A DNA stretch of 64,000 nt from Adhaeribacter pallidiroseus (GTDB lineage Bacteria; Bacteroidota; Bacteroidia; Cytophagales; Hymenobacteraceae): the NCBI RefSeq assembly GCF_003340495.1, contig NZ_QASA01000001.1, positions 3,968,001 through 4,032,000 on the forward strand, given 5' to 3'. How positions within the stretch are numbered: the stretch's first letter is position 1; each line of letters starts with the position of its first letter. The position numbers were made by a program, and so were the translations under genes. Shown piece after piece: positions 4,201-53,735 of the stretch. Below the pieces are notes generated by a model. The model worked only from the letters and a program-made list of their open reading frames with translations. It searched no databases and was not told the DNA's origin.

Positions 4201-7200
4201 ACTGATTTTGATAATGCCAACATTGAATACCTGGAGTTTTGGATGATGGACCCTTTTCTGGGGGTAACCAATCCAAACTCGAGATACACCGTTATTGATG
4301 ATGACAACGATCAAACTGTTAACGATAAAGCCAACACTACGGGTGGCGAGTTAATATTTAACTTAGGTAATGTTTCGGAAGACTTATTAAAAGATCAAAA
4401 CCGCTACGAATTTGAAAACGGTTTACCTACCGAAGCAGCTCCCAGCAACATTGCCACTACGCCTAAGCCCGACACAGACCGCACTCCCTGGGGGTAGTAA
4501 CCCGGCGCCAATTCTTAACCGATGCTTTTGATAATACGTCTGGTAGTCGCCAGTTTCAGGATATTGGCTTGGAAGGTTTAACAGATACGGAGGAAAAACA
4601 ATTTTTTACGGGGGTTTACCAGCAATTGGCCGACCCCTCGAATGATAATTTTAAGCACCACTTAAATCAGGATTACGATAATCGCGATGTTAAAATACTG
4701 GGCCGTTACAAATACTATAACGGTATGGAAGGTAACTCAGCCGAAAACAGCGTGGAAGCGGCTTACTCTTATCCCGATAAAGAAGATTTAAACAAAGATA
4801 ATATTGTATCGGATGTAGAACGCTACTATGAATACAAAATAGATCTCCGCCCGGGCAAATTAGAGGTAGGCCAGAATTACATTGTAGATAAAGTAGTAAA
4901 TCAAGGGGATAGCGCCAAAAACGGGGATAAAGTAACCTGGTATTTATTCCGGATTCCGGTTCGTCAGCCTACCGGAAATGTAAATAACATTCAAGGTTTT
5001 AAATCCATCCGGTTCCTGCGCATGTACTTAACCCGGTTTCAAGAGCCCGTGGTACTCCGGACGGTACAAATGCAATTTGTATCCAATCAATGGCGGAAAT
5101 ACTTGGGCTCGGTGTCGGAGGGTGGCGCGCCGTGTACGGGTAATTGCGATACCGACGTAGATAATTTTACTGTTTCCACCGTGAACCTGGAAGAAAATGG
5201 GGAATCGGATACAGGCAATATAAAATACGTGATTCCACCGGGTATTTACCGGCAATTTGATAATTCATCGGTTACTACCCGGCGGCAAAATGAGCAATCG
5301 CTGCAAATCTGCGTGGATAATTTAAAAGATTCCTTTGGTAAAGCGGTTTACAAGAACGTAACCATGGATATGCTTATTTACAAGCGACTAAAATTGTTTA
5401 TTCACGCGCAAAGCTTAAATGGCAGCACCCGCGACGACGAAGTCCGGGCCTTTATCCGGATTGGTACGGACTATACTCAAAATTACTACGAATACTCCTT
5501 GCCTTTAAAGATTACCCGGAATGGAGCCATTAATGAGCAAGAAATCTGGCAGGTAGAAAACATGATTGACGTTGCTTTCCAACAATTTATTGACGCGAAG
5601 GCTGCCAGAAATCAAAAACAGGCAAATATCTTACAACCTTTTCCGGTAGATTTAGGAAATGGCAGAACAATTACCGTGGTAGGTAATCCGGATTTTAGCT
5701 CGGTACAAGGTATTATGATGGGAGTGCTTAACCCTAAAACCCCTGACCGGGCCGATAAATCATTTTGTGTTTGGGCAGATGAGTTACGCGTAGCCGATTT
5801 TGATAAGAAAGCCGGTTGGGCCGCCAATGCCCGCGCAAATTTAAAATTAGCCGATTTAGCCAATATTTCGGCTACGGGTTCCTACACGACCGTTGGCTTT
5901 GGGGCGTTACAGGAAAAAATTGCCCAACGAGCGCGCGCCAATACCGCGCAGTTTGATATAAACGCTAATATTGCCGCCGATAAGTTCTTACCGGAAAGAT
6001 TAGGTATTCGCATTCCGGTTTCGGTGCAATACGGGAAAGCGACCCAGGAACCTCGTTACGATCCATTAGATCCGGACACCCCGTTAGAGCAATCGTTACA
6101 GAAGTTTGGGGATGATAATGAAAAAAGGGAGAAATACCGGAAGGAAGTTATCAATCAAACGACAACCAAAAGCTTTAACTTATTAAATGTTCGGAAAGAA
6201 AAAACAGATCCGGATGCGAAACCGCACCCTTACGATATCGAGAATTTGTCACTATCGTACGCTTACAGCGAGTTGAAGCATACCGATATTTTTACGGATA
6301 ACGATTTAACGAAAACTTACACGGGAGGCTTAGCTTACGCGTTTAATGGCGCTCCTAAAAATTATACACCGCTTAGTAAAGTAGCTGCTTTTAAGTCTCC
6401 TTATTTAAAATTTTTGCAAGAATTCAACTTTACGCCGCTGCCGAGCCGGGTAGCTTTCCGCGCTGATTTAGACCGACGTTATAATGAGGTATTTCTGCAA
6501 CGTCGCGTTAATGCAAATGAAACACCTGTTAGATTAGATCCTAAATATGCGACTTTCCAGAAAACATTCTTCTTTAACCGGGTGTACGATATCAAGTGGG
6601 ATTTAACGAAGAGTTTGACCTTTGATTATACCGCAACCAACCGGTCGGTAGTAGATGAACCAAAAGGCCAGATCAACGGCGATGACCCAAAATTAAGAGG
6701 TAAGAACGACTCTATCTGGCACAACTTATGGCGTGGTGGGCGTACTACTAACTTTGATCAGTCAGCAGCGGTTACTTATCGCTTACCTCTGGATAAGTTT
6801 CCGTTAACCGATTGGGTAAGCGGCGACGTACGTTACGCAGCGGGTTATACCTGGACTTCGGGTTCTACGGTATTATTAAGCGATTCGCTGGGCTTAGGTA
6901 ATACCATCCAGAACAACAGCGATGCCAGTGTAACCGGTAAAGTAGATTTAATGCGCTTATACAATAAAGTTAAATTCTTGAAAGCCATTAACGAAGCTAC
7001 TCCGGCGGCAGGTGCCCGGCCTCCGCAACCAGCAGCACCTGGTGCCGCTGCCCCGCAAGACACTACCGAGAAGAAACCCGAGTTACGCGCTTTGAAAGCC
7101 ACGTTGAAGGTATTAATGGCCGTACAATCTATTAATTTTACTTACCAGTTAACGCGCGGTAATTTAGTACCAGGTTATCTACCTAAGTCCAGGTTCCTGG

Positions 7201-8534
7201 GCTTCGACGAAGGTTTTAGTGCGCCTGGGTTACCGTTTATTTTGGGAAAGCAGTTTGAATTAAGCGAATTGTACAACATGATAGATCGGAATGGCTGGTA
7301 TACCAACAATAGTCATTTGTTAAATACAGCCTTTAGCGGTTTACGTACGGAGAATTTTTCGGCCCGGACGAATGTCGTTCCGTTCAAAAACTTTAACATT
7401 CAGGTGGAAGCCCGGCGGGAACGTTCGGATATTGAAGAAGCTTTTTACCGTTTATCCGTGGATGAAGCAACCGGCAACCCCATTAGTAACATGGAAGAAT
7501 TGCAAAACCCGTATCATACCGGTTCATTTAGTACTTCTATTATTTCGCTGGGTACGATGTTCGAAAGCAAACGGGGTAATGGTTCGCAAGCTTTTGATAA
7601 TTTTATTAAATACCGGTCTAATATTGCTCCCCTTTTATCCGCTGCTAACCCAGATAAAACCGGTACTTACACTAAAAACTCGCAGGATGTTTTAATTCCG
7701 GCCTTTATGTATGCTTACACGGGTAAGGATATTAACGCTTATGATCCGAATAAAAAGGCTGGCCGATCTACTAATTTATTTAAAAGCATTCCGCTGCCAA
7801 ACTGGCGATTAGATTATAATGGTTTAGCGGAGTTACCTTTTATTAAGCAATACTTTAGCTCGTTCACGTTGGCGCATGCTTATAGCTCGGTGTATAGCAT
7901 TAACAGCTTTGCTACTTCCTTAAGTTACACCACCGAACCAGTAACCGGATTTTCAACGTTTAAAAACGAAAGAAATGAGTTTGAACCGTACTACGTAATA
8001 GGCCAGCTAACCATCATGGAGCGGTTAACACCTCTATTGGGTATTAATTTTAAAACTCAGAAAAACATTATCGGCCGCATAGAATATCGTACCGAGCGTA
8101 ATCTGGCCCTTAACATGGCTACAAATGCGCAAGTAACCGAAGTTGGCATTAAAGATTACGTTATTGGGTTAGGATATGCTACCACTAATTTCCGGGTACC
8201 TTTTAAAATTAATGGCGAACGGATTGTGCTTAAAAATGAATTAAACGCCCGTTTTGATTTTACCTTACGCGATAACCTGACTATTCAACGATCTATTATC
8301 AACGATACGACTGGCATTGCTGGACCTGGTATTGAACAAGAACGAAGCGATAACGTGCCCACAAATGGCACCAAACAAATTCAGATTAAACCTACCATTG
8401 ATTACACAGTAAATCAAAAACTAAATATTCAGTTTTACTTTACCCGGGTGGTTTCGGAACCTAAAATATCCAGTTCATTTAAAAATACGGTTTCCGAAGG
8501 TGGTATTCAGTTACGTTACAGCTTATCGCAGTAA
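1216..8534 (+). pseudogene. sprA: T9SS translocon protein SprA (Sov), frame broken once near base 4492
   Basis: Two frames together form one giant SprA. Bases 1216-4497 give 1093 residues and the -1 frame continues to 8534. Adding one G to the run at 4490-4494 joins them as TPWGVV..RRQFLTDAFDN and gives about 2439 aa, close to the roughly 2400-aa Flavobacterium SprA. SprA forms the very large outer-membrane beta-barrel of the type IX secretion translocon, through which CTD-bearing cargo passes. Visible features are an N-terminal export signal, the SprA_N-type region around residues 95-150, the SYIDDFEGAE motif near 847-856, and long barrel-like stretches. A Pro/Ala-rich insert lies near base 7000-7060. 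The start is TTG at 1216, 21 bases after ruvA. As printed the gene makes no full protein. A sequencing deletion is more likely than a real null, because porU, porV and T9SS cargo are intact nearby. Confidence 0.93.
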
Positions 8535-8609
8535 ATAAAACATTATTTAAAAAATCAGGTATTATGGTAAAGCTGTAAATTGGCGAAGGTACCAGAGTTA
8601 AATTCTTAC

Positions 8610-8617
8610 TATATTTG
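8610..8617 (+). promoter_or_regulatory. Putative -7 promoter element for gcvH
   Basis: TATATTTG matches the Bacteroidota -7 consensus TAnnTTTG and lies 59 bases before the gcvH ATG, after the end of sprA. I see no clear TTG at the usual -33 spacing, so this is a match to half of the consensus only. Confidence 0.4.
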
Positions 8618-8676
8618 CGCCGCAACCCTTAAAATAAAGCCACTAGTAACATAAACACCTAAAACTGAAACAAAAA

Positions 8677-9057
8677 ATGAATTTACCACAGGACCTCCGT
8701 TATACCAAAGATCATGAGTGGGTACGTATAGAAGGTGATATTGCCTACGTGGGCATTACTGATTTTGCACAAAGCGAGCTAGGCGATATTGTTTACGTAG
8801 ATATTGATACCCAGGATAAACAGGTGAATAAGGAAGAAGTATTTGGCACGGTAGAAGCCGTAAAAACAGTTTCCGATTTGTTTAGCCCGCTTACCGGTAC
8901 GGTGCTGGAAGTTAATCCGAAGCTGGATTCTAATCCGGAACTAGTTAATTCAGACCCGTATGGTCAAGGCTGGATGATTAAATTAGCAATAGATAATACC
9001 AGTGAAACAGAGGAATTGCTAACGGCTGAAGCATATGCCGAATTAGTAGGTGTTTAA
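8677..9057 (+). CDS. gcvH: Glycine cleavage system H protein
   Basis: A 126-aa protein of standard H-protein length. The lipoyl-carrying lysine is K63 in the [13 protein letters not shown] motif, inside the typical hybrid-motif fold. GcvH shuttles the aminomethyl group from the P-protein to the T-protein and then to dihydrolipoamide dehydrogenase during glycine breakdown. It must be lipoylated, and in many bacteria it also serves as a lipoyl relay. The lipoyl synthase gene lipA is on the other strand about 25 kb away. Downstream after 47 bases is a VanZ-like gene, an arrangement (sprA, gcvH, vanZ-like) that I recall from other gliding Bacteroidota. A -7 element upstream suggests its own promoter. 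Confidence 0.97.
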
Positions 9058-9104
9058 TTAAATTATAAAAAGTAAAGCACCCCTATTTTTAAATTTTTAA
9101 CACG

Positions 9105-9506
9105 TTGCTGTTTCGAAAACCTTATTTTCCAGCGTTGAGTTGGGCAGTGATCATTTTAATATTAACGTTGCTGCCACCTCAAGCATTACCGAAAGTTCCG
9201 GATTGGAGCCTCACAAGTATTCATTCGCTGGCGCATCTATTTATTTTTATGACCTGGGCTTTCTTGTTATTAACAGGCTTTTTCCGGGCCGCTACAAGTG
9301 GCAAATACAATCGCATCTGGGTTACTTTTATTCTGGCTGTAAGCTACGGCGCACTGATTGAGGTATTACAAGGATTAATGCGGCTGGGTCGCCAACCCGA
9401 TATTGTTGATATTTTCTTTAATACTTTAGGCGCTTTGTTGGGGATTGCTGCTTTCTTCCTGGTTAAAAAGTTTTTTGTTAAGGAACCGCTGCGCGCTGCA
9501 AAATAG
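9105..9506 (+). CDS. VanZ-like family membrane protein
   Basis: A 133-aa protein with about four hydrophobic helices. It has the VanZ-like layout: an early LTLLPPQALPKVPD loop after helix 1, a conserved HSLAHLFIFMTWAF second helix, an ALIEVLQGLMRLGRQPDIVDIFFNTLGALLG segment, and a basic tail. The function of most VanZ-like proteins is unknown; the name comes from a teicoplanin-resistance accessory protein, and no antibiotic role should be inferred here. The start is TTG at 9105, which places a hydrophobic helix after a short basic leader. Its position behind sprA and gcvH suggests co-transcription with gcvH. Confidence 0.8.
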   Translation: MLFRKPYFPALSWAVIILILTLLPPQALPKVPDWSLTSIHSLAHLFIFMTWAFLLLTGFFRAATSGKYNRIWVTFILAVSYGALIEVLQGLMRLGRQPDIVDIFFNTLGALLGIAAFFLVKKFFVKEPLRAAK

Positions 9507-9517
9507 GAGTTCGTTAT

Positions 9518-10507
9518 TTATTTAACAGCGTTAGGTAACGGCTCTTTTTGCGCAAAAGCGGTGATATTTTGCAAAGTTACTTCCGCAATTTTGTGCAGGG
9601 CATTCTGCGTAAAAAAGGCTTGATGACCGGTTATCAGCACGTTTGGAAAAGCTAACAAACGGGTAAATACATCGTCTTGAATTACTTTATCGGATAAATC
9701 CGCAAAAAACAAGTCCCCTTCTTCTTCATATACATCTAAGCCAAGATAGCCAATTTGTTCGTGCTTTAAACCTTCGATTACCGCTATTGTATCAATTAAA
9801 GCGCCACGGCTGGTGTTAATAAGCATAACACCGCGTTTCATTTGCGCAATAGTGGTTTTGTTTACAATATGGAAGGTGTCTGGCGTAAGCGGGCAATGTA
9901 AGGAGATAATATCCGACTCGGAGTAGATAGTGGCTAAATCCGTGTACTTTAAACCAATTTCTCGTCCTTCGGGCTGTTGCAGCACATCGTATCCTAACAC
10001 TCGGCAGCCTAGCCCTTTAAAAATCCGGGCGGCGGCAAATCCTATCTTTCCTAAGCCAATTAAACCAACGGTTTTATCGTGTAAATCAAAGCCCATTAAT
10101 CCGTTTAAAGAAAAGTTACCTTCGCGTATCCGGTTATAAGCCCGGTGGGTTTTCCGGTTTAGCGTAAGTACCAAAGCCAGGGTGTGTTCGGCAACGGAAT
10201 AAGGCGAGTAAGCCGGAACCCGGACGACTGGAATTTTAAATTTTTGAGCGGCTGTTAAATCAACATGATTGTAACCGGCGGATCGCAACGCTAGTAATTG
10301 CACATTTAAATCCGCAAGTTGCTGTATTACCGCCAGACTAGCTTCATCGTTCACGAAAATACAAACCACATCAAAACTGCGGGCCAATACGGCCGTATCG
10401 GCATGTAAAGGCACATCCAGGAAATGCAATTCATGGTGATGAGCCTTATTCAAATTCTCAAAAAATTGTTTATCGTAAGGTTTGGCACTAAAGAATACCA
10501 CCCGCAT
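9518..10507 (-). CDS. ldhA: D-2-hydroxyacid dehydrogenase (D-lactate dehydrogenase type)
   Basis: A 329-aa protein with the 2-hydroxyacid dehydrogenase fold. The substrate-binding domain comes first (RSAGYNHVDLTAA near residues 95-107). The Rossmann NAD-binding motif follows (GLIGLGKIG near 148-156), then INTSRGALID with the substrate-contacting Arg, and a catalytic His in LITGHQAFFT. The overall pattern is closest to LdhA-type D-lactate dehydrogenases, which reduce pyruvate to D-lactate with NADH in the cytoplasm, but related enzymes act on other 2-oxoacids. It converges with the VanZ-like gene, their stops being only 11 bases apart. It lies 36 bases downstream of yicC on the same strand, so read-through from yicC is possible. 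Confidence 0.85.
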   Translation of the reverse strand: MRVVFFSAKPYDKQFFENLNKAHHHELHFLDVPLHADTAVLARSFDVVCIFVNDEASLAVIQQLADLNVQLLALRSAGYNHVDLTAAQKFKIPVVRVPAYSPYSVAEHTLALVLTLNRKTHRAYNRIREGNFSLNGLMGFDLHDKTVGLIGLGKIGFAAARIFKGLGCRVLGYDVLQQPEGREIGLKYTDLATIYSESDIISLHCPLTPDTFHIVNKTTIAQMKRGVMLINTSRGALIDTIAVIEGLKHEQIGYLGLDVYEEEGDLFFADLSDKVIQDDVFTRLLAFPNVLITGHQAFFTQNALHKIAEVTLQNITAFAQKEPLPNAVK

Positions 10508-10543
10508 TACAAAAGCTCCTTCACCCGTTAGAATTTTAAAATT

Positions 10544-11428
10544 TTAAAGAATATTGTTGAGTTGTTCCTTTATTTTTTCGAGTTCTTCTTTCATCTCCAC
10601 CACGAACCTTTGTATGGTGGCATCGTTGGCTTTAGAGCCGATAGTATTGATTTCGCGACCAATTTCCTGCGATATAAAGCCTAACTTTTTACCGGTGGGC
10701 TCGGGTAAATACACGGTTTCGGTAAAGTAATGCAAATGGTTTATTAATCTAACTTTCTCTTCCGCAATGTCCAGTTTCTCAATAAAATAAATCATTTCCT
10801 GCTCAAAGCGGTTTTCATTAAAAAGTTCGGACGTGTTGATTTCGGCGAGATGGGTGCGAAGCCGGTTCCGGATGTGCTCTACCCGAATGGGATCTTGTTT
10901 ATCAATCTCGGCCAGTAGTATCCGGATGCGATCGATGTAAGTCATAATTTCGGTGGTTAAGGCCTTACCTTCGTCTGTCCGGAAATTATTAAAATTTTGC
11001 AAAGCTTCTTCCAATATTACCTGCACTTCTTCCCAGGTAATTACATCGGCTTCTTCCTCTAATCCGGAACCTTGCTGAATAACTTCGGGCATTTGCAGTG
11101 CTAACCGGAACAACTCATTTTTATTAGCCCCTATCCGGTCGGCGGCCATTTCCAGCTCAGAGTAATACATTTGTAACAATTCGGTATTAATAGAATTGCG
11201 GGCTTTGGCCATGCGGTTACGCGAAAAATCAACGGTAAGATTAACTTTACCGCGCACCAAGCATTTGGTAAGTACATTCCGGATTTCATGTTCTTTATCC
11301 GCCAGAAAGCGCGGTACCCGCACAGATAAGTCCATGCTTTTCGAATTAAGTGACTTTATCTCAATACAAATGGTATATTGGTCGGTTTCTCTTTGGGCCA
11401 AGCCGTAGCCGGTCATTGATTTTAACAT
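10544..11428 (-). CDS. YicC family endoribonuclease
   Basis: A 294-aa protein, the usual length for YicC/YloC. The N-terminal domain begins MLKSMTGYGLAQ and contains the typical EIKSLNSKSMDLSVRVPR stretch. The C-terminal DUF1732-like part includes PTGKKLGFISQEIGREINTIGSKA, the most conserved motif of the family. Members studied in E. coli act as endoribonucleases that trim or destroy some RNAs. In many Bacteroidota the next gene is guanylate kinase, but here it is a 2-hydroxyacid dehydrogenase. A TACCTTTG -7 element sits 31 bases before the start. The identification is firm; the biological role in this lineage is inferred from the family. Confidence 0.92.
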   Translation of the reverse strand: MLKSMTGYGLAQRETDQYTICIEIKSLNSKSMDLSVRVPRFLADKEHEIRNVLTKCLVRGKVNLTVDFSRNRMAKARNSINTELLQMYYSELEMAADRIGANKNELFRLALQMPEVIQQGSGLEEEADVITWEEVQVILEEALQNFNNFRTDEGKALTTEIMTYIDRIRILLAEIDKQDPIRVEHIRNRLRTHLAEINTSELFNENRFEQEMIYFIEKLDIAEEKVRLINHLHYFTETVYLPEPTGKKLGFISQEIGREINTIGSKANDATIQRFVVEMKEELEKIKEQLNNIL

Positions 11429-11459
11429 GCGAGCTAATTTTAGAAATCAAAGTAAAATT

Positions 11460-11467
11460 CAAAGGTA
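11460..11467 (-). promoter_or_regulatory. Putative -7 promoter element for yicC
   Basis: Read on the minus strand the bases are TACCTTTG, matching the Bacteroidota -7 consensus TAnnTTTG, 31 bases before the yicC ATG. A convincing -33 TTG at the right spacing was not found. Confidence 0.4.
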
Positions 11468-11623
11468 CACGATAAAGTAATGTTTCTTTTTTTATTTTTC
11501 AGTTGCATTCCACTAATTTTAACCGAATTTTAAAATTTGGTTTTTGCCCCGGCGGAAACTAATTTTGTCTGAAAATCCTTATTTTAATACGCTATACAGT
11601 AAAAGCGAAGGAATTAGTAAAAG

Positions 11624-11878
11624 ATGAGATTAAACTCTTATAAAACTCTGAAGACGAAGTGCGGCAAAGAGTTTGATAAAGACCTATTAAAAGTAATGGC
11701 CTTTAGCACAAAAAACTTCAAGTACTCTCACACTACTTATACTATCTACAAAACGGAATCAGAAGGCTATCTTTATTGTTCGTATAAATACGATGCCGTA
11801 ACTGATTACACTACGGTAGATTGTGAAATTATCAGTGAGCAAGAAGCCTTGGTTCATTTAAATAAAACAGCTTCTTAA
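11624..11878 (+). CDS. Small protein of unknown function (84 aa)
   Basis: I do not recognise this protein. It is 84 residues, without signal peptide or membrane helix, rich in Tyr, Lys and Thr. A middle part of alternating polar and aromatic residues (YTIYKTESEGYLYCSY) suggests beta strands. It contains two Cys residues (C13 and C52) plus C62, with no metal-binding spacing. It stands alone between divergent yicC and co-directional purQ, and a hairpin with a T-tract follows it directly at 11902-11934, which supports a real transcription unit ending here. ATG at 11624 is the only reasonable start. Confidence 0.6.
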   Translation: MRLNSYKTLKTKCGKEFDKDLLKVMAFSTKNFKYSHTTYTIYKTESEGYLYCSYKYDAVTDYTTVDCEIISEQEALVHLNKTAS

Positions 11879-11901
11879 CGGTTTAAATTTTAAAATTACC
11901 T

Positions 11902-11934
11902 GGCTACTTTTTAATAAGTAGCCTTTTGTTTTTT
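11902..11934 (+). terminator. Rho-independent terminator after the 84-aa gene
   Basis: An 8-bp stem GGCTACTT/AAGTAGCC with a 6-base loop is followed by a T-rich run (TTTTGTTTTTT). It lies 24 bases after the stop of the small unknown gene and upstream of the purQ promoter. Confidence 0.7.
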
Positions 11935-11980
11935 ATCTCGGTACCAGTAAATTCCGGCATATTAACTTTAATTATGGTAA

Positions 11981-12009
11981 TTGTATGTCATTTTAAACTC
12001 TTATATTTG
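11981..12009 (+). promoter_or_regulatory. Bacteroidota promoter for purQ (-33 TTG, -7 TATATTTG)
   Basis: TTG at 11981-11983 and TATATTTG at 12002-12009 are separated by 18 bases, a good fit to the Bacteroidota sigma-ABfr promoter. The -7 element ends only 4 bases before the ATG at 12014, so the predicted transcript start falls at or next to the start codon and the mRNA would have almost no leader. Confidence 0.6.
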
Positions 12010-12013
12010 CCTC

Positions 12014-12706
12014 ATGAAATTTGGTGTAGTAATTTTCCCAGGCTCTAACTGCGACCAGGATGTGATCGAAGTTTTAAGCCGCACATCGCAAAAGCCGGTA
12101 GCCCGCCTCTGGCACAAAGATCACGATTTACAAAACTGTGATTTTATTGTATTACCGGGTGGTTTTTCTTACGGCGATTACCTGCGTTCGGGCGCCATTG
12201 CCCGCTTTTCTCCTATTATGCAAGAGGTAATTGCGCACGCTAACAAAGGTGGCTATGTTTTAGGTATTTGCAATGGTTTTCAAATTTTAACGGAAGCTGG
12301 CTTATTGCCGGGAGCCTTATTACGTAACATTGAGCAAAAGTTTATTTGTAAAAACGTTTACATAAAACCCGAAACAAATACTTTACTACCTACCCGGCAC
12401 TTGGACATGAACAAAGCCTATCAAATTCCGGTAGCGCACGGTGAAGGTCGTTTTTTTGCGGATACTGATACTCTGAAGCAGTTGAATGACGATGAGCAAG
12501 TGATGTTCCGGTACAGCGATGAAAATGGTGATACTAACGCTTGCTATAATTGTAATGGCAGCCTGGAAAGTATTGCGGGGATTAGTAATGCGGGTAAAAA
12601 CGTATTTGGTATGATGCCGCACCCGGAACGGGCCGCTGATCTGGAATTATGTAATGTGGCCGGCTTATCTATTTTCGAATCTATTCTGGATAGTGTGCCG
12701 GCTTAA
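12014..12706 (+). CDS. purQ: Phosphoribosylformylglycinamidine synthase, glutaminase subunit PurQ
   Basis: A 230-aa class I glutamine amidotransferase. The N-terminus MKFGVVIFPGSNCDQD is diagnostic. The nucleophile is C86 in GICNGFQ, and the His-Glu pair sits in MMPHPERA near residue 206. PurQ releases ammonia from glutamine for the PurL synthase in step four of purine synthesis and works with PurS, whose gene is at 18810. No purL is in this window. The upstream in-frame TTG at 11981 would add 11 residues unlike the family and is itself the -33 box, so ATG 12014 is chosen. A tandem 16-bp repeat follows the gene. Confidence 0.96.
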   Translation: MKFGVVIFPGSNCDQDVIEVLSRTSQKPVARLWHKDHDLQNCDFIVLPGGFSYGDYLRSGAIARFSPIMQEVIAHANKGGYVLGICNGFQILTEAGLLPGALLRNIEQKFICKNVYIKPETNTLLPTRHLDMNKAYQIPVAHGEGRFFADTDTLKQLNDDEQVMFRYSDENGDTNACYNCNGSLESIAGISNAGKNVFGMMPHPERAADLELCNVAGLSIFESILDSVPA

Positions 12707-12733
12707 TAAAGTACTTATAGCAGCCATTATTTG

Positions 12734-12765
12734 AAAGCTTTCAGCTATTAAAGCTTTCAGCTATT
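12734..12765. repeat. Perfect tandem repeat, 2 x 16 bp
   Basis: The unit AAAGCTTTCAGCTATT occurs twice back to back (12734-12749 and 12750-12765), just after purQ. Each unit contains the palindrome AAAGCTTT. No function is evident. An 11-mer AT-rich motif overlaps its right edge. Confidence 0.8.
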
Positions 12766-12814
12766 TTTAAATTTTTTCTTTTCTCAACCTTGCAAATAAA
12801 GGGTAGTAATTAAA

Positions 12815-12858
12815 AAACCAGAAGCTCCTTGTGTTAAATAACAAGGAGCTTCTGGTTT
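12815..12858. terminator. Bidirectional terminator between purQ and the Omp85-like gene
   Basis: Perfect 18-bp arms (12815-12832 and 12841-12858) surround an 8-base loop, with A-runs on the left and T-runs on the right. It sits between two convergent genes and can serve both. Confidence 0.8.
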
Positions 12859-12879
12859 ATAGGTAACACGATATAAAAT

Positions 12880-35031: not shown

Positions 35032-35035
35032 AATA

Positions 35036-41912: not shown

Positions 41913-42004
41913 GATAAGCTAACAAATAGGCTAAAAAATTACTTCACACAGCTTAGTCGCTCTTCTTATTACTTTATTTCAATATTTTTTTAAATTTTCT
42001 CCCT

Positions 42005-42997: not shown

Positions 42998-43181
42998 AGT
43001 TTGTTCGTTTTTGTAGTTTAAGTTTTTTTATGGAAAGAATTATGTTACCATACTTGTGCTTCTTAAGCGAAATGCATTATACGAGTTTCTCCTGTAGATT
43101 AGATTAATTTTACGGCCGCAATTTTAATTATTTCATTAGGCGCAACTTAACATACTGATTCCATTGCGGTATCTAAACAAA

Positions 43182-43205
43182 AAAGACGCTACATGCAGCG
43201 TCTTT
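43182..43205 (-). terminator. Terminator after the sugar isomerase-like gene
   Basis: Nine-base arms AAAGACGCT and AGCGTCTTT with a 6-base loop. On the minus strand they are followed by a T-run (opposite AAAAAA at 43179-43184). It lies 31 bases after the gene stop. Confidence 0.7.
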
Positions 43206-43236
43206 CAATTAATAGCAAACTACTCCGAACATTATT

Positions 43237-44229: not shown

Positions 44230-44272
44230 AACTTTTTGCTAAAAAAGGCTTATTCTGTGTATTTGTAATAGT

Positions 44273-45090
44273 TTACAATTTTCTTAAAGCAAAACTTTTT
44301 CCTCTTCTTATCAGCGGATCATCTACATCTTCAATTGGCTGCAGTTCAAACAACTGAATGATATCCGCCTCTTGAATCATTTCGCACCGCATATCTGGTA
44401 AAGCTTTCGAATTGCTAGACAAAATCAAAAAGTCTTTACTTTCGGCACTGGAAAGAACATATTTGTTATAATTTGAATAGCCCGTTAAAAACCCATCTTT
44501 TTTAAAAGTTAGTTCTGACCGGGTAGAGTCCGGTAACAAAATTTCGTACTTACCTGCAAACCATTTATTTGTTAGCCGTTCTAACTGCTCCGAAAACAAG
44601 ATAGAGGGAGCTTTACCTTTAATATCCTCTAATGGCAGAACCTTTCTATATTTTTTAATTCTATTTGTAGCTTTTAGCTCTACTTCCAAAGTAGAATCTG
44701 TAAATGTTTTAATTGTAAAAGCAGGTTCCCGCGTATAATCCAATACCTGGTTATTAGGCAACACAAAAAATAATCTTCTTCCATTAAGTTCCTCTCGTTG
44801 CCATATAATATGCTGTCTCCTTGGTAGAGTAAATGAGTATAGGAATCAGCCAGGGAATCGGTTTTAGTTACAGAGTTATACTTCTTCAAATTCGGTAGAT
44901 ACTCTGTATTTTCCCATAATCCCGCTATCCTTGGATATTTTAATTTTTTACGAGATTTAGCAGATGTGGCTGGGTTTAAGACAGACTTAGCCACTTGGTT
45001 AGATTCTTTTACTTTGGCCGAATCTCTTTTTCTATCACAACTAATCACTAGCAAAAACAAAATAAACAAGGCTGCTTGTTTCATATTCAT
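44273..45090 (-). pseudogene. Lipoprotein of unknown function, frame broken once near base 44767
   Basis: Two overlapping frames form one 272-aa lipoprotein if one base is added to the A-run at 44765-44770 (T-run on the coding strand). The join then reads NLMEEDYFFVLPNNQVLDY. The first half starts MNMKQAALFILFLLVISCDRK, with a lipobox cysteine; ATG 45090 is preferred to 45153, which would overlap the fucosidase gene. The second half contains repeated Thr/Lys-rich beta-like stretches (FTIKTFTDSTLEVELKATN). I do not recognise a family; the text IAGLWENTEYLPNL and later segments resemble lipocalin-like stress proteins, but weakly. It is AT-rich compared with its neighbours. Confidence 0.65.
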
Positions 45091-45121
45091 CCTGGCTACC
45101 AAATAACTTTTTGCGCAACCG

Positions 45122-46483
45122 CTACTCTTTATCAGAAGCTTTATAGAAACCAACTTCGGCTAACTGCACGGGTTGCTTAGCCTGAAGTACCGTGAAACGT
45201 ACTTTGCTGGTTTTAATTTCCGGAAAGCGCAACAGCCGTTTGTAGCCAATGGTGGTAAATGTTTCTACTTTTTGCCAGGTTTTACCGTTCCAGAACTCCA
45301 GGGTTGCTTCCATATTGCGCTGGCCGTTCGCTATATTTTCCTGGAACATCGCCCGGTCAAAAGTTATTGTTTTTTTAAAATTTAATTCCAGTGGTTTGTT
45401 TACCGGAACGGTAATGCTGGTTTTTAGTTGATCATCGGTGAGTGTTGCCGGGCTGGTACCTTTTGCCAGATTGGTTTTAAATGTTTCGTTTAAAATACTT
45501 CGGAAATCGTACAAACTTTTAATATCCGGTTCGGAGAATAAACCTTGGCGATTGGGTGGAATGTTGAGTAAAAGCAAACTATTACGGCCTACTGATTGAT
45601 AATATAGATGCACCAGTTCTTTGCCGGATTTAACTTTGCTATCTTCGGCGGGATGATAGAACCAACCCGGGCGGATGGATACATCGGTCTCGGCCGGAAT
45701 CCAGGATTTACCATTCGGGTCGCCGGTGTTTAAATAAGCAGGGTCGGCTTTACCAGGTGCCAAATCAGTGGCATTGATGGTGGACCAGCAGGTTTGTCCC
45801 GCATTACCCGATTCATTACCGACCCAACGCACATCCGGGCCCGCATCCGAAAACAAAATGGCTTTGGGTTGCAACTCTCGTACTAATTGCCAGTAACTGT
45901 TAAAATCGTATTGCATGTCTTTGGCATTTTTGCCTTTAGCCCCATCGAACCACACTTCCGAGACTTCGCCGTAATTGGTGAGCAGTTCTTTTAGTTGATT
46001 TTTATAAAAATCGTTGTATTGGTTAGTGCCGTAGGTAGGTTCATGCTGATCCCAGGGCGAAAGATAGAATCCGAATTTTATACCGTACTCCCGGCAAGCC
46101 TCCGCAATTTCTTTCACCACATCGCCTTGTCCATCTTTCCAGGGACTGCTTTTTACCGAATGATCGGTGTACTTACTGGGCCATAAACAAAAACCATCGT
46201 GGTGCTTAGCCGTAATTATGGCGATTTTAAAACCCGTTTCTTTTAAAGTTTTTACTAATTTCCGGGCATCGAATTGCGCGGGATTAAAAATTTGGGGACT
46301 TTCGGTTCCATCGCCCCATTCTTTATCGGTGTAAGTATTTACCGTGAAATGCAGAAAAGCGGTAGTTTCGAGTTGCTGCCAGGCCAGCTGCCGGGGAGTA
46401 GGTTTAGGTAAAGTTTGGGAATACGCCGGCGGGTACAGGAACAAAGCAATAAACAGAATACAAAAAGTACGTAGCATTCGCAT
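45122..46483 (-). CDS. Alpha-L-fucosidase (GH29)
   Basis: A 453-aa secreted glycosidase with signal peptide 1-23 (PPAYSQ). The GH29 TIM barrel shows FLHFTVNTYTDKEWGDGTESP, the AKHHDGFCLWPSKYTDHSV motif (residues 93-110) and the nucleophile D180 in VSEVWFDGAKG. The C-terminal 120 residues form a beta-sandwich, resembling the F5/8-type domain often appended in this family. It removes fucose from glycan ends in the periplasm or outside. The acid/base residue cannot be fixed without an alignment. Upstream is a 310-base gap; the lipoprotein gene begins 31 bases after its stop. Confidence 0.93.
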   Translation of the reverse strand: MRMLRTFCILFIALFLYPPAYSQTLPKPTPRQLAWQQLETTAFLHFTVNTYTDKEWGDGTESPQIFNPAQFDARKLVKTLKETGFKIAIITAKHHDGFCLWPSKYTDHSVKSSPWKDGQGDVVKEIAEACREYGIKFGFYLSPWDQHEPTYGTNQYNDFYKNQLKELLTNYGEVSEVWFDGAKGKNAKDMQYDFNSYWQLVRELQPKAILFSDAGPDVRWVGNESGNAGQTCWSTINATDLAPGKADPAYLNTGDPNGKSWIPAETDVSIRPGWFYHPAEDSKVKSGKELVHLYYQSVGRNSLLLLNIPPNRQGLFSEPDIKSLYDFRSILNETFKTNLAKGTSPATLTDDQLKTSITVPVNKPLELNFKKTITFDRAMFQENIANGQRNMEATLEFWNGKTWQKVETFTTIGYKRLLRFPEIKTSKVRFTVLQAKQPVQLAEVGFYKASDKE

Positions 46484-46793
46484 GTAATTTATTTAAAAAT
46501 AAACTCGATTTTGGGTATAGCAATACGAGGTACTTAGCATAAATAAAAGTACCTGTTTTAACTACCCATCCTTTTATTAGGCCAGAATTTAAAACGAAGG
46601 AAACCAATAATCTGGAAGGTACGAAATAACAACCCTACTTTTTTATTTACTAAAGTTATAACCCTGTTTTTGGATTAGATGCGACATAGCTATTTTTTAA
46701 ATTTCAAGCTATAAGCAACTTATTTTCTTAAAACTAAAAGCAACAAAAAAGCCGTTCCACACTGGGAACGGCTTTTTTACATTACATTATATT
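46484..46793. other. Intergenic region upstream of the fucosidase gene
   Basis: About 310 bases between two minus-strand genes. It holds a strong terminator (46745-46778) for the SGNH lipoprotein gene and one AAATTTAAAAA motif (46694-46704). The rest presumably carries the fucosidase promoter, but I saw no convincing TAnnTTTG/TTG pair. Confidence 0.5.
46745..46778 (-). terminator. Terminator after the SGNH lipoprotein gene
   Basis: Perfect 14-bp arms AAAAAAGCCGTTCC and GGAACGGCTTTTTT with a 6-base loop, 15 bases after the gene stop. Confidence 0.85.
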
Positions 46794-48188
46794 TTATGGA
46801 AATAATACAGCCCGGTATTGAGTAATATCGGCCGTGGGTATCCGGGAGTTGTACTTTGCGTTAATGGCTTTAATCATTTCGTTGGCCACTAGGGCGTAAC
46901 CGCGCGGGGTTAAGTGCACCCCATCCAGCGAAAACAAATTACCGGTAATAAAAGCCGGCGAGTAGGCTACTCCGTTCTGCGTAAAACCGCCCTGAAGGCT
47001 ATTAAAATAAGTATAGGCATCAAAAACCGCTAAACCTTTTTCCTCGGCTTTGGCTTTTAAAATATTATTAAAATTAATAGTAGCGTCGCTCACATCTTTT
47101 TGCTCCGCAGCATCCAACAAAAGAGCACTTGGCCAAGGATTACCCGCGCTCACCCCAAATAGCTGCGTAGTATCAATCTGGTAATTTACCAAAATAGTAA
47201 TCAAACCCAGGGTAGGATTGGTAGGAACGGCTTGCCGGGCTAAATCGCGCCAGTATTTACCAGTCCGTTGCCCTACTAAAGGCAAGTAAGTACTGGAGGT
47301 TAAAGGAAATAAAATATTGCCGCCGGCCGCATCTTTTATTTGCGACGTAGCAATCTGAATGCGGGCATTGCTATTTCGGGTAAGCGCCACCATGCCCGGT
47401 ACCCCGGCGGTGGTTAATAAACCTTTAATGGTTGGCCCTACTGTAGTAAAGAACGGAATACCCGTAACATCCGGGATGGTAGCCACAATACCATTGGCAC
47501 CATTGGCGGTTAAGGCATTGATAACTTCGGAATTGTTGGTGGTAAAGGTTTCGGTTGCGGTTATAGAATTGGCAAAGGCACCCGCAGTAGCATAGCCCAG
47601 AATATCGTTATTACCCAACCAGCAACTAAAAAAAGTTGGATTGCTAGCCGCTACCCGGGCCAGATACGTTTGCGTAGGATTGGTAGTAATGCGCTCAAAA
47701 TACGGATTACCCTGCGAGCTGCCGTACCCCGCCGTTTGAATATCCGACATCCGGATGCCCGGTACACCCAGGTTATTGATTTCTTCGGTGTATTTGGTGT
47801 AGAGCGTCGGGTTTTGGCTCCTAATGGCCAACTTTTCGGTTACGGGCGTTAGTACCGGTAATCCGGTGGGGCTAAAGGCACTTAAACGGAGGTAACCGCT
47901 GCCGTTTTCTTGTTCTTCGGTGAACAAAGGCTGGGTAAAATCGCCTCCTCCGGCTTGCTGGAACTGCTGCGCTAAAATGCTCGGGTACGAATTTAATTGC
48001 CCTTCGCGGTACAAGCCGCCATCCATATAACCTGCCGTAAGGGAATTACCCACGGCCACGTATTTATCCAGGTTCAGGTCGCCTTTACTTACCTTCACCA
48101 CATCTTCTATTTCGGGGTCGCAACCCGAAATTAGCAGGATACTAGCTATAAAGGCTAAGGCACTATATTTTTGTAAGCTATTTTTCAT
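46794..48188 (-). CDS. SGNH/GDSL hydrolase lipoprotein
   Basis: A 464-aa lipoprotein with the lipobox at ILLISGCD (C23). The SGNH esterase blocks are visible: block I KYVAVGNSLTAGYMDGG (Ser nucleophile in GNSLT), block III CWLGNNDILGY and block V DGVHLTPRGYALVANE with the Asp and His. Such enzymes cut ester bonds of lipids or acetylated sugars; the substrate is unknown. It follows a FadL-type outer-membrane channel gene by 23 bases. In other Bacteroidota this pair is also adjacent, suggesting hydrolysis of a lipid and uptake of the fatty acid through the channel. Confidence 0.88.
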   Translation of the reverse strand: MKNSLQKYSALAFIASILLISGCDPEIEDVVKVSKGDLNLDKYVAVGNSLTAGYMDGGLYREGQLNSYPSILAQQFQQAGGGDFTQPLFTEEQENGSGYLRLSAFSPTGLPVLTPVTEKLAIRSQNPTLYTKYTEEINNLGVPGIRMSDIQTAGYGSSQGNPYFERITTNPTQTYLARVAASNPTFFSCWLGNNDILGYATAGAFANSITATETFTTNNSEVINALTANGANGIVATIPDVTGIPFFTTVGPTIKGLLTTAGVPGMVALTRNSNARIQIATSQIKDAAGGNILFPLTSSTYLPLVGQRTGKYWRDLARQAVPTNPTLGLITILVNYQIDTTQLFGVSAGNPWPSALLLDAAEQKDVSDATINFNNILKAKAEEKGLAVFDAYTYFNSLQGGFTQNGVAYSPAFITGNLFSLDGVHLTPRGYALVANEMIKAINAKYNSRIPTADITQYRAVLFP

Positions 48189-48211
48189 TTTAACTATAAC
48201 CGAAAGATTTT

Positions 48212-49461
48212 TTAAAAATTATAATTTACCGCGATGCCCGGAATGTAACCTACGGCTTTATAGGTGCCGGGCACTCCCCCTGATAAGTTAGCCGCATCGC
48301 TGCGCTTCTCCCGGTTTACGTACAGAAAAGAAGCATCAATCCCAATTTTTTCGGTAAGCTGGTAACTCAACCCAGCCGATACGCCTATCGCATTGGCATC
48401 GGGTGTTTCGGGTGTAAGATAGCCGCTTTCTACCGGCGATTGATCGAGGTAAGCGCCCGCCCTTACTTGTAGCTTATCCGATACAGCGTATTCGGCACCT
48501 AAACGGTAAATAAACACATCCTGGTAATTACGGGCATTTTCCGTAAAATTGCTGCCGTTTACCGCTTGGCTATAATCAAACCGCAGCGATTTATAAACAC
48601 TCCACTGCACATATTGCACATCAGCTGCTAAGGTTAGTTGGTCGGTAGCCCGCAGGCCTAAACCTAAAGTTATGTTAGCCGGTAAAGGTAACGTAACATC
48701 AAACCGGGTACCGGCCGGAAAACGGGAAGCAATCGGAGCGGCCCCGGGAGTAGTAAAAGTAGCGTCGCCATCTTTAACTTCCATGGTTACTTTAGAGCGG
48801 TAATTAAGGCCCACTGATAAATTTTCCGTGGCCTGAAAATAAATACCAGCGTTAAAGCCGTATCCTAGGGCACTACCGTCTAATTCCACATGGCCTTCTT
48901 GGCGGTTGGCATCTTGCAGCGGAATGCTACGTTGCAGGTTTACGCCGCCTAAGGCCAGAATAGGCCCGGCCCCAATGCTAAGTTTATCGGTAAGGGCATA
49001 GCTAAAAGTTGGCTGAACAAAAATGGCTTGTAAGGTCAGTTCATTTAATCCAAATCGACCCTGCCAATTATCGCCCCAATTCACGGAAGAGCCAAAGGGC
49101 GTATATACCCCAATGCCCACGCGCGCTTTATCATTCGCAAATCCGTAAGAGCCATACACCTGAAAAGGCGTACCCACCGGATTATCGGTTTGCGCGGTAG
49201 CGTTACCTGGCTCCAACTCCTGATAAGCGCTTTTAGAAAACAAGGTACTTATGCCGACTTGTACGCCATTTTGCCGGATGCGCGCCAAGGCGCCGGGATT
49301 AAAAAAATACTGGCCTGATCCCGAGCTAAACCTACCCCGGTGTGTCCCATGCCAATTTGTTTCTGACCCTGTAAATTTACTTGAAATCCTCCGGCGTACG
49401 TTACCGCAGTTAACCCGGATAAAAAGACACCTCCTAGAATGGAAAGTAATTTTGCTCTCAT
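48212..49461 (-). pseudogene. FadL/OmpP1-type outer-membrane transporter, frame broken once near base 49304
   Basis: One base added to the A-run at 49301-49307 (T-run on the coding strand) joins two frames into a 416-aa FadL-family protein. The true N-terminus is MRAKLLSILGGVFLSGLTAVTYAGG (signal peptide) at 49461. It runs into GFQVNLQGQKQIGMGHTGVGLARDQASIFFNPGALARI, the classic FadL beginning. The C-terminal part (LSYQLTEKIGIDASFLYVN, VNYNF end) is a 14-strand barrel pattern. FadL channels move long-chain fatty acids and other hydrophobic compounds across the outer membrane. The 49567 frame start gives an out-of-frame N-terminus and should not be used. It is paired with an SGNH hydrolase gene. 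Confidence 0.85.
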
Positions 49462-49869
49462 ATTGCTTGTTTCGTTCGTTAAGGCACTTACAGCTATAAC
49501 AAAAATAAAAATTTAAACCGGCGTTACCACACAGATTTTTAAAAATATTTAAAATTACCAGGTACATTTTACCTATTATCTAAAAATTACAGGTAATTAC
49601 GAGACTTTATTAAATATTTTTAAATTATAAAGTGCATTAAATCAATGCTTTCCGGAAAGTATGACCTTTGTATTTATTGTTAACTGTTTTAACGAAAGCA
49701 GTAGGTTTATAGATGGTATTTTTTCATGATTTTGCGGGAATTTTATTCTTTTTTAATTCCAACAGTCTCCTGAACGCATCATACTACTTGGCTTTTTGGA
49801 AAGAGCAAATAAAATAAGGGTAACTCGCGACACCTGAATCCGTTTACTTAACCGAAAAAAGTTACCAAG
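49462..49869. promoter_or_regulatory. Divergent intergenic region between the FadL-like gene and the TrxR-like gene
   Basis: About 410 AT-rich bases. On the minus strand TATTTTTG (49507-49500) fits the -7 consensus 38 bases before the FadL-like start. No matching promoter was clear for the plus-strand oxidoreductase gene. No RNA gene or repeat stands out. Confidence 0.4.
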
Positions 49870-50784
49870 ATGTACGATGTTATTATAGTGGGCGGCGGCC
49901 CGGCCGGAACGAGTGCCGCCATGTTGTTGGGGCGATGTGTACGCAATGTGCTCTTGTTTGATTCCGGTTTGGGCCGCAATCGTTGGTCGAACCACATGAA
50001 CGGTTTTATTTCCCGGGATGGCTACAATCCCGTAGAATTTATTAAACTGGCCCGCGAAGAATTAAAAAAATACCCGGTAGAAGTAAAAAATCAAATTGTA
50101 AAAAGCGTTAAGCGCGTAGAAAATTACTTTGAAGTAACCGATCGGGATGATCATTGCTACGTAGCCCGCAAAGTTCTGTTGGCTACCGGCTTAAAAGATA
50201 AACTACCCGACATACCGGGTATGGAAGAAAAATACGGCAAAAGTGTGCACCATTGCCCTTACTGCGACGGTTGGGAATCGCGCAACAAACCTTTGGGTGC
50301 CTACGGCAAAGGCCGCGACGCGGTAGGTTTATCTTTATCGTTAAAAACGTGGAGCAACGACGTAACCTTATACACCGACGGCACCCGTAAACTGCGCCGC
50401 GAAGACTCCGCTTTACTGGAAGCGAACGACATTAAAATTTGTACCGCGTCCATTGAACGGCTGGCTGGCGCAGGTAGCGAACTTTCCGAAATAATCTTGC
50501 AAGGTGGCCGTAGCCTGAAATGCGAAGCTTTGTTTTTTAGTACGGGTTCGGAACAACAGTGCGATTTAGCCACCAACTTAGGCTGCGATTTTACGAGCAA
50601 AGGCGTGGTACGGACTTATAAAAACCAGCAAACCAACATTCCCGGATTGTACGTAGCCGGCGACGCCTCCCGCGACATGCAACTGGTAATTGTAGCGGCT
50701 TCGGAAGGTACTAAAGCTGGGGTGATGATTAACAAAGAACTACAAGAAGAATTCCGGCTGCAAATTACTGATGTGCGGGTATAA
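49870..50784 (+). CDS. Thioredoxin reductase-like FAD/NAD(P) oxidoreductase
   Basis: A 304-aa flavoprotein with the FAD motif VGGGPAGTSAAMLLGR (residues 7-22), a redox CxxC motif HCPYCDG (C129, C132) and a second FAD motif GLYVAGDAS near the C-terminus. The NAD(P) motif is unusual: GAYGKGRDAVGLSLSL replaces the normal GxGxxA/G fingerprint. The group with this layout in Bacteroidota is separate from housekeeping TrxB; the partner thiol protein is unknown. CPYC may still be redox active. It faces away from the FadL-like gene and is followed 68 bases later by an AT-rich AbiGi gene. Confidence 0.85.
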   Translation: MYDVIIVGGGPAGTSAAMLLGRCVRNVLLFDSGLGRNRWSNHMNGFISRDGYNPVEFIKLAREELKKYPVEVKNQIVKSVKRVENYFEVTDRDDHCYVARKVLLATGLKDKLPDIPGMEEKYGKSVHHCPYCDGWESRNKPLGAYGKGRDAVGLSLSLKTWSNDVTLYTDGTRKLRREDSALLEANDIKICTASIERLAGAGSELSEIILQGGRSLKCEALFFSTGSEQQCDLATNLGCDFTSKGVVRTYKNQQTNIPGLYVAGDASRDMQLVIVAASEGTKAGVMINKELQEEFRLQITDVRV

Positions 50785-50851
50785 AATTTAAAAATTTATA
50801 TTGTATAGAAAAATAGGTTTAATATTCTATTTAAATCTCATATTCTAAATA

Positions 50852-51723
50852 ATGAGCTTATCAGCAAATACACTATTTCATTTTACGTCTAATATTGATT
50901 ACCTAATTGGCATTTTGGTTAACGGATTTCTTCCAAGATATAGTCTTGAAGACTTTACATTTGCTTATCCAGAATCTAGAAATCCAGGAATAAAGCATCC
51001 ATTTAAAATTGGGGTCCCAATGACTTGCTTCTGTGATATAAGGTTAACCCAAACCAAAAACCATTCTGCAACTTATGGAAAGTTTGTCATTGGAATGCAA
51101 AAAGAATGGGGAATTAAGAATAGAATTACACCAGTAACATATTTTCATCCTTACTCTAAAATCCTAATGAGTTAGTACACTATGGTCATATAATATGGGA
51201 TAGTATATTAAGTTTAAGTGGAAAATCATTAGAAGAATTACAATCCGATTTATGGAGTATGAACGTTGAAGAATATTCCCAACCAATAAAAGACCTTATA
51301 AATGTTACAAGCTTTGTACATACTTTATTTCACTTTTACAAACCAATTTCTGGTACCGTAATCCGGAATGACTTAGAAGAATTTGTATACTTCTATGACG
51401 AAAGAGAATGGAGATACTGCCCTGATTTGTCAGATGAAGATAATCCTGGACGTAGTAAATACCTGCCTTTATTGTTTGAAGAACAATACATGAATCAAGA
51501 AATAAAAAATGCGGAAAACTTGAGGTTACAACAAATAAATCAACTTTTATTCTCTGAAAATGACATTAAGTATCTAATTCTTCCCAGCAGAAGTAACCTA
51601 TCTGAATTTCTGAAGAAACTTGAAAACGCTCAGAAAGAAACTATAAACACTTACCAAAAGTTAGACATTTTATCACTTCTTCCTTTAATAAGATTCTATG
51701 ATGAAATTGAAGAAGATCAGTAA
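50852..51723 (+). pseudogene. AbiGi-type abortive infection protein, frame broken once near base 51160
   Basis: One base added to the A-run at 51158-51161 joins bases 50852-51175 to the frame ending at 51723, giving 290 aa. The join reads HPYSKNPNELVHYGHIIWDS. The start MSLSANTLFHFTSNIDYLIGIL..GFLPRY, then VPMTCFCDIRLTQTKNHSATYGKFVIGM and KEWGIKNRITPVTYF, fits the AbiGi family, whose Lactococcus member is the antitoxin-like half of the AbiG phage-exclusion pair. No AbiGii partner is next to it; many Bacteroidota carry AbiGi-like genes alone. Base composition is clearly more AT-rich than the genes on both sides, which suggests horizontal transfer. Whether it is functional depends on whether the missing base is real. 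Confidence 0.75.
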
Positions 51724-51732
51724 ATTATAACC

Positions 51733-52728
51733 GTGTTACTTATTTGCATTATTAAATTGTGGAATAAACGTCGTTTCCTAATAAGTTTATTATTACTCTT
51801 ACTCCCACCGCAGGTTTTTTCGTGGGGATTTTTTGCCCACCAGCGCATTAACCGGCTGGCGGTATTTACGCTGCCGCCCGAAATGATCGGCTTTTACAAA
51901 CAACACCTGGCCTACCTCACCGAAAACGCCGTTAACCCCGATAAGCGCCGCTACATGCTGCCCCAGGAAGGCCCGCGCCACTTTATTGATTTAGATGTAT
52001 ACGGCGATAGCGCTGCTTTAAAACTGCCCCGTACCTGGCAGGCCGCTCTTACCAAATTCACCGAAGATTCGTTAATGAAACACGGCATCGTGCCCTGGCA
52101 CATTAACCGCGTTAAAAACCAACTCACCGAAGCTTTTAAACAACACGATCAACTCCGGATTCTCCAAATATCCGCCGATTTGGGCCATTACGTGGCCGAT
52201 GCTTGCGTGCCGCTGCACACCACCCACAACTACAACGGGCAGTTTACCAATCAACGCGGCATTCATGGTTTATGGGAATCGCGGCTACCGGAGTTGTTGG
52301 CCGATCAGTACGATTTTCTGGTAGGCCCCGCGCAATATATTAATCAGCCACAAGTACAAGCCTGGAAAATTGTACAACGGTCCAATGGCGCTTTAGATTC
52401 GGTTTTTCGTTTCGAGCAAGAAGTATCGGCGAGTTTTAGCGCCGACCGGAAATATGCTTTTGAGGAACGTGGCGGAACAACGGTTAGAGTGTATGCCGCT
52501 CCTTTTTCTAAAGCCTATCACCAACGTTTACACGGCCAAGTCGAACGCCAGATGCGGCTCGCCATTAAATTAGTGGCTAGTTATTGGTACACCAGTTGGG
52601 TAGATGCCGGTCAGCCGGATCTGCGGAACTTGCAACCGCTCACCGAATCGCAGAAAAAACTTTTGCTGGAGGAAAAACAACAATTAAAACCGGTTTTAAC
52701 TCCCGAGCGTCCCCACGAAGCCTTTTGA
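51733..52728 (+). CDS. Zinc-dependent phospholipase C / S1-P1 nuclease-fold protein
   Basis: A secreted protein of 331 aa from GTG 51733, or about 323 from TTG 51757 (LWNKRRFLIS), which gives a cleaner signal peptide. Cleavage after PPQVFS would leave Trp as the first mature residue (WGFFAHQRIN). An N-terminal Trp and a nearby His are zinc ligands in the phospholipase C/S1-P1 nuclease fold. Further ligands fit DLGHYVADACVPLHTTHNYNG and GIHGLWESRL. These enzymes use three zinc ions to cut phosphodiesters of lipids or nucleic acids. The substrate is unknown. It begins 9 bases after the AbiGi-type gene but has normal base composition. Confidence 0.8.
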   Translation: MLLICIIKLWNKRRFLISLLLLLLPPQVFSWGFFAHQRINRLAVFTLPPEMIGFYKQHLAYLTENAVNPDKRRYMLPQEGPRHFIDLDVYGDSAALKLPRTWQAALTKFTEDSLMKHGIVPWHINRVKNQLTEAFKQHDQLRILQISADLGHYVADACVPLHTTHNYNGQFTNQRGIHGLWESRLPELLADQYDFLVGPAQYINQPQVQAWKIVQRSNGALDSVFRFEQEVSASFSADRKYAFEERGGTTVRVYAAPFSKAYHQRLHGQVERQMRLAIKLVASYWYTSWVDAGQPDLRNLQPLTESQKKLLLEEKQQLKPVLTPERPHEAF

Positions 52729-52816
52729 TGTTGTTACCATTTAAAAAGCAACGAAAAAACAGGTAGACGAGGTAAAATTTAAAAAAATTAGCTGAATTTA
52801 CCTTTCTCTTTTCACT

Positions 52817-53735
52817 TTAGATAACGGTTTCGTAACGGTGTATTTCGTTGAGGTGCATAATAATATTTCCGTTTTCGTCGGTTTCGTAAGCTCGCTGGAA
52901 ACGGGCATTCCAAACGATTTGGTCATGTTGGTAAGAATAGCTGGTATGCAAAATCTGGCTAAACGTATCATCAAAACCTTTCACATGAATTAGAATCTCG
53001 GCCTCTTGGCGGCTCAGTTCTTCCGTAGATTTACCGTACAGCGGACTTTCTTCGTTTATCACGTGCACCAGGGTCCAGTTCATCGGAAAGAAAATAATGT
53101 TCGCTACTTCTAGTTTTAAGCTGTAGTACTTGCGGTTATGCTGATCGTTGGTATGATCCACGAGTACCAGCATCATCCGGCTTTCCATTTCCATCAGCAT
53201 ATTACTGCGTTGATTTACAATCCGGAACATGAGCTTTGGAAAAGGCTCGGCGGGTGTAACCACCATGTTGCGGCTAAACAAAATGCGGGCCGATGGCCGC
53301 GAAAAGCGCCCATAAAGCAAGCCGGTAGCCAAGGCAAAAAATAACCAGCCACACATGGCTTCAAAACTCGCGATAATATTAGCCGGAATACCCTGGGGCG
53401 AAATATTGCCGTAACCCACCGTGGTAAAAGTTTGTACGCTAAAAAGAAAACGCTCAAGTACGTATGAATGGCACTTGTAGTAGGCAAGTTGGCTAAGTGT
53501 TCAATACCAGCCAGGTAATAACATCCCGCAAAAAGTAAGTTAATCAGCAAATAAAAAAGCAGCATTAAAGTTAAAAAATAGGCCACGAAGCATTGATCAG
53601 AAAAAGGTAAAAATCGCGACTGTTAAACCCCCCGCCCTTGCGCACCACGTTATAAGTACCATCCGGGTTGATCATGCGCTTGGTTCTACCGGCGTATTTT
53701 TCACCGAAGCCCGGGTCGTTGGTTTGCTGCAACAT
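52817..53735 (-). pseudogene. KirBac-type inward rectifier potassium channel, frame broken twice
   Basis: Three minus-strand frames make one 306-aa channel when one base is added near 53581 (SWPYFLTLM junction) and one near 53455 (HTYLERFLFSVQ junction). The start is ATG at 53735 (MLQQTNDPGFGEKYAGRTKR). The N-terminal slide helix and RDFYLFLINASWPYF, first membrane helix, selectivity filter TTVGYGNIS (TVGYG at 106-110), second helix and the large cytoplasmic IRK domain (FSRNMVVTPAEPFPKLMFRIVNQRSNML, EEEL-like strands to the end) all match KirBac proteins. They conduct potassium across the inner membrane under lipid control. As printed only fragments would be made. Confidence 0.88.

Follow-up and report, generated by a model that had tools for sequence, protein, structure and literature searches.

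Single-Base Frame Breaks in Adhaeribacter pallidiroseus Are Most Likely Homopolymer Errors of the Genome Assembly

Introduction

Five genes in a stretch of the Adhaeribacter pallidiroseus chromosome, hereafter called the window (64,000 bases, positions 3968001-4032000 of contig 1 in a genome of 6.43 Mb assembled in 3 contigs), are each distributed over more than one reading frame. The question raised by this locus is whether these genes have been lost by mutation, are rescued during their expression, or only appear broken in the assembled sequence. An earlier note, based on the letters of the sequence, had counted six frame losses in the five genes and implied that they were sequencing or assembly errors. 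The analysis reported below supports this view. In our view it is highly probable (about 0.94) that all six breaks reflect wrong homopolymer lengths left in the assembly consensus, which most likely derives from long reads not polished with accurate short ones. Some runs of one base would have been called one base too short, and each shortened run would shift the reading frame so that an intact gene appears split.

Materials and Methods

Frame breaks were located with tblastn by comparing stop-to-stop frames of relatives with the window, and also in the reverse direction, with the addition of codon-position counts. The resulting census compared the A. pallidiroseus genome with three genomes of the same genus (G003, G004 and G006) and covered the genes having a homologue in the compared stretches of these relatives. 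Beyond the window, 660 kb more of the chromosome were taken in, together with the matching parts of the relatives. In the 464-kb block around the window, the alignment with G004 amounted to 71.7 kb upstream, 58.9 kb within the window and 124.6 kb downstream.

A site was accepted if both of its sides were coding, namely with a third-position share of at least 0.42 and the second position not above the first by more than 1; this rule is a loosened version of our first filter and was fixed after the rows had been seen. Ten rows of the A. pallidiroseus genome and 13 of its relatives failed the rule and were dropped; they resemble non-coding DNA at the upstream side of stop-to-stop frames, frames on the antisense strand, or tails read out of frame from genes that were already in the count. 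Three further A. pallidiroseus rows (offsets 7, -2 and -2) passed the rule but cover two adjacent sites each, and were not counted as sites. One row of the window, at 3998871 (offset +2, obtained with the G003 query only), was also discarded as a break; since this row fails our rule and G004 shows the junction as well, we read it as an ordinary gene start.

Breaks were assigned to homopolymers by the best match to the relative, with 3987 simulated one-base losses in intact genes as control. This procedure replaced an earlier placement by gapped alignment, which proved ambiguous at about 78% DNA identity. The rRNA loci, as well as those of a repeated element, differ in orientation and flanks, and the alignment of whole loci was replaced by that of their shared parts.

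Frame Breaks in the Genes of the Window

The largest of the five genes is sprA (SprA_N, PF14349; gliding and type IX secretion), which extends from 1216 to 8534 on the forward strand in two frames. Comparison by tblastn with three relatives places its break, of net -1, at 4479-4494, and two of these relatives narrow it to 4491-4494, by a run of 5 identical bases at 4490. Intact homologues have 2437-2442 residues, and an open frame of at least 2361 residues lies at the corresponding place in 33 of 38 relatives. The gene for a FadL/TodX-like outer membrane protein (PF03349; 48212-49479, reverse strand) has its initial 56-59 residues in a different frame from the rest. Two relatives agree on a net -1 break at 49294-49306, at a run of 7 starting at 49301, and the intact homologues have 416-419 residues.

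The third gene, encoding a KirBac-type inward rectifier (IRK_C, PF17655; 52817-53735, reverse strand), lies in three frames and shows two breaks of net -1 each, at 53437-53458 and 53574-53577. Both have been located by tblastn with one relative, G006; the nearby runs measure 5 bases at 53441, 4 at 53447 and 6 at 53573. The intact homologue has 326 residues and carries an Ion_trans_2 domain as well. The C-terminal piece of the A. pallidiroseus gene is matched in six of 38 relatives, G003 and G004 being without a match. The earlier note had proposed a comparison with homologous genes of sister strains; in genomes of the same genus, sprA, the FadL-like gene and the KirBac gene (the latter from G006 alone) are intact.

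For the other two genes, nothing aligns at the corresponding place in the compared stretches of G003, G004 and G006, and their breaks have been deduced from more distant homologues. The AbiGi-like gene (PF10899; 50852-51723, forward strand, GC 0.314) lies in two frames separated by a net -1 break, between about 51160, where the downstream open frame begins, and 51175, where the upstream one ends, by a run of 4 at 51158. Both frames match successive parts of one homologous protein in 15 of the 17 foreign loci compared, the exceptions being L114, which matches the upstream frame only, and L119, which has no match. Pfam and PADLOC matches in the two frames also continue one another, the PADLOC model having 260 positions. 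Within the order sample, 16 of 290 other genomes contain this family. This gene of low GC sits between two genes that are conserved in relatives; neither neighbor matches a PADLOC defence model, so that an AbiGii partner is not seen beside it.

The lipoprotein-like gene (44273-45153, reverse strand; GC 0.354 over 44273-45083) has two frames and a net -1 break near 44764, by a run of 6 at 44765. One frame matches residues 17-124 and the other residues 136-292 of a single homologue of 302 residues, and this break is the weakest of the six because the identity to the homologue is only 23% and 27%. Within the family sample, the gene was matched in one of 149 other genomes; with its low GC and rarity in the family, it may be either a recent arrival or a fast-evolving gene.

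All six frame losses are therefore confirmed, those in sprA, the FadL-like gene and KirBac (twice) by intact relatives and those in the AbiGi-like and lipoprotein-like genes by distant homologues. The homopolymers that had been listed at 4490, 44765, 49301 and 51158 have the positions and lengths originally given, and the claim that every loss is a deletion holds, each break being of net -1.

Distribution of Breaks along the Chromosome

The census identified a total of 16 break sites in 11 genes with queries from G004, G003 and G006. Queries from G004 alone detected three sites upstream of the window, two within it, five downstream (three of which in one gene) and three at 2.64-2.78 Mb. Besides genes of the window, the breaks affect dxs, carA, a DUF520 gene and a CN-hydrolase gene, as well as rpoC, which is discussed below. 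Breaks are thus spread over the chromosome and are special neither to the window nor to its five genes. By comparison with G004, one site occurs in about every 24 kb of the coding sequence that was aligned, a rate that may be an underestimate because the compared amount may contain some antisense frames. No site was found in six separate 20-kb stretches of the genome, among which only that at 0.9 Mb had a counterpart known among the compared sequences; the comparison of this stretch with its counterpart returned no break, which speaks against the error reading.

All 16 sites are of -1 type (two-sided p 3e-5 under equal chances of gain and loss). A run of at least four identical bases in the A. 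pallidiroseus sequence is touched by 13 of the 16 sites, versus 13.3% of the 3987 simulated one-base losses, and a run of at least five by 11 sites, versus 4.6% of the simulated losses. The other three sites, at runs of three bases or less, speak against the error reading. Hence, the error implied by the earlier note finds support in the direction and context of the breaks, and also in the rpoC and 23S data presented below.

The same-genus relatives provided a control. Under the identical rule, G003 and G006 showed no break, and G004 showed a single row, of +1 type (539006, from a G003 frame of 104 residues), which is doubtful; its translation does not look like protein. When A. pallidiroseus queries were run against G004, none of five rows passed the rule over 104,248 residues, whereas the reverse comparison produced 13 sites in A. 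pallidiroseus over 103,221 residues (p 1.1e-4, a value that serves as a guide only because sites within one gene are not independent).

The association with homopolymers would also be compatible with real breaks and their bypass, in which slippage during transcription or -1 slippage of the ribosome restores full-length proteins, RpoC included. Runs of A are known slippery sequences, and at six of the 16 sites the run measures 6 or 7 bases. However, runs do not exceed five bases at ten sites, and bypass would leave unexplained the one-base losses that separate the 23S copies. Programmed or slippage-based frameshifting resembles the present case in the presence of homopolymers at the frame changes, but here the frame changes are scattered over unrelated genes and are not conserved in relatives; since the latter keep sprA and rpoC in one frame, no conserved slippage signal is seen. 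We therefore regard bypass as extremely improbable. It is equally hard to credit a chromosome truly full of one-base homopolymer losses, some in essential genes, that would obtain working proteins through slippage of RNA polymerase or the ribosome.

Broken rpoC and the Pseudogene Alternative

Searching the A. pallidiroseus genome for PF04997 returned two matches, which are adjoining pieces of one rpoC gene in different frames. The sole rpoC found in the genome is thus broken in the same manner as the genes of the window, at a site near 4087337 of contig 1. In 37 of 38 relatives rpoC lies in one open frame of at least 1434 residues, the copy of G007 being divided between two contigs. Cells are not expected to survive unless their RNA polymerase beta-prime is intact.

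This finding weighs on the possibility that the strain has lost these genes through genuine one-base deletions. The breaks are present in the assembled sequence, sprA and the genes for the porin, the channel and the defence protein are plausibly dispensable, and pseudogene formation by single-base deletion would equally produce net -1 breaks in otherwise conserved genes. Nevertheless, pseudogene formation should spare essential genes, whereas the only rpoC match is broken and dxs and carA are broken alike. In-frame stops elsewhere in the genes, which the earlier note would have taken as counterevidence to error, do not occur in those parts of sprA, FadL and KirBac that were matched, a result that also argues against decay. 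The codon-position mismatch ratio, which would rise under relaxed constraint, has a median of 0.46 in the broken genes (12 rows, with sprA represented twice) and of 0.38 in a set of 200 others, a difference that is not significant (p 0.15). An extreme value belongs to a single gene outside the window. For sprA, fadL, carA and rpoC, the sequences of A. pallidiroseus and G004 are closer to each other than those of G003 and G004. Considering also the rRNA copies, which differ by one-base losses without substitutions, we deem it very unlikely that the broken genes are real pseudogenes.

An observation in favor of pseudogenes concerns a gene outside the window, which combines four breaks with lower conservation than that of the genes around it. 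It is located at 4043426-4043969 of contig 1, about 11 kb past the window end, and encodes a protein of about 280 residues without Pfam match, interrupted by four -1 sites; its conservation is lower in A. pallidiroseus (0.635) than in G003 (0.692). This gene may represent either genuine decay or a stretch of poor consensus.

An intermediate possibility, which overlaps with our preferred explanation, is that most breaks are errors but at least one of those in the accessory genes of the window (AbiGi, lipoprotein or KirBac) is real. The uneven presence of these genes among the sampled genomes, noted above for the KirBac piece (6/38), AbiGi (16/290) and the lipoprotein (1/149), is in line with such a mixture, as is the dependence of the AbiGi and lipoprotein breaks on distant homologues. 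Their direction and homopolymer context, however, match those of the breaks in rpoC and between the 23S copies, and we consider a mixture rather unlikely.

23S Copies as Internal Controls

The three 23S genes of A. pallidiroseus have 2892, 2891 and 2890 bases. Aligned over 4.8-4.9 kb, their regions show no substitution and three one-base losses, which fall in runs of 5, 7 and 7 bases (length in the longer copy), each relative to the other two copies. Conversely, the 23S copies of the relatives (three in G003, three in G004 and two in G006) have no gaps in any of their seven copy pairs, which differ by 0 to 3 substitutions. Losses that are confined to homopolymers and unaccompanied by substitutions would hardly be produced by mutation, but are what miscounted runs would produce.

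The genome also contains four nearly identical copies of an insertion-like element of about 1.85 kb, at 4153400, 5848505, 5829492 and 2677179 (L148-L151). No indels were found within their shared part, a result that tells little, since a frequency of one per 24 kb predicts only about 0.3.

Probable Homopolymer Errors and Their Consequences

The same type of break thus occurs in an indispensable gene and between rRNA copies that are otherwise identical, which makes mistakes in base counting very probable. As anticipated for homopolymer errors, the indels concentrate in homopolymers, are all losses and affect both an essential gene and repeats. Judging from this class of breaks as a whole, each single site of the window would belong to it. 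According to PMC8812927, bacterial assemblies made from long reads only can retain hundreds of errors, mostly homopolymer indels, and PMC12007338 describes one draft assembly in which false deletions predominate and are most frequent behind runs of four to five bases. The likeness with the present case extends to one-base losses, homopolymer context and the fragmentation of genes at many places of one assembly. Long reads would probably be the source of the errors, a deduction suited by the 3 contigs for 6.43 Mb, which are compatible with long reads rather than a demonstration of them.

It follows that the breaks very probably represent no biological feature of the organism and carry little biological weight: the affected genes should be treated neither as lost or split nor as recoded. 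Extrapolated to the whole genome, about one site per 24 kb would amount to a few hundred of them. Consequently, this record is not a reliable basis for counting genes, for calling pseudogenes or for claiming that functions such as gliding or type IX secretion are missing.

For other assemblies, the 23S copies provide a rapid test of this kind, namely the search for identical repeats differing in homopolymer length alone. With regard to other genomes, sprA is also split in G009, another single-contig genome (contig 1, 2226365-2229507), apparently by a -1 change that may reflect a similar error.
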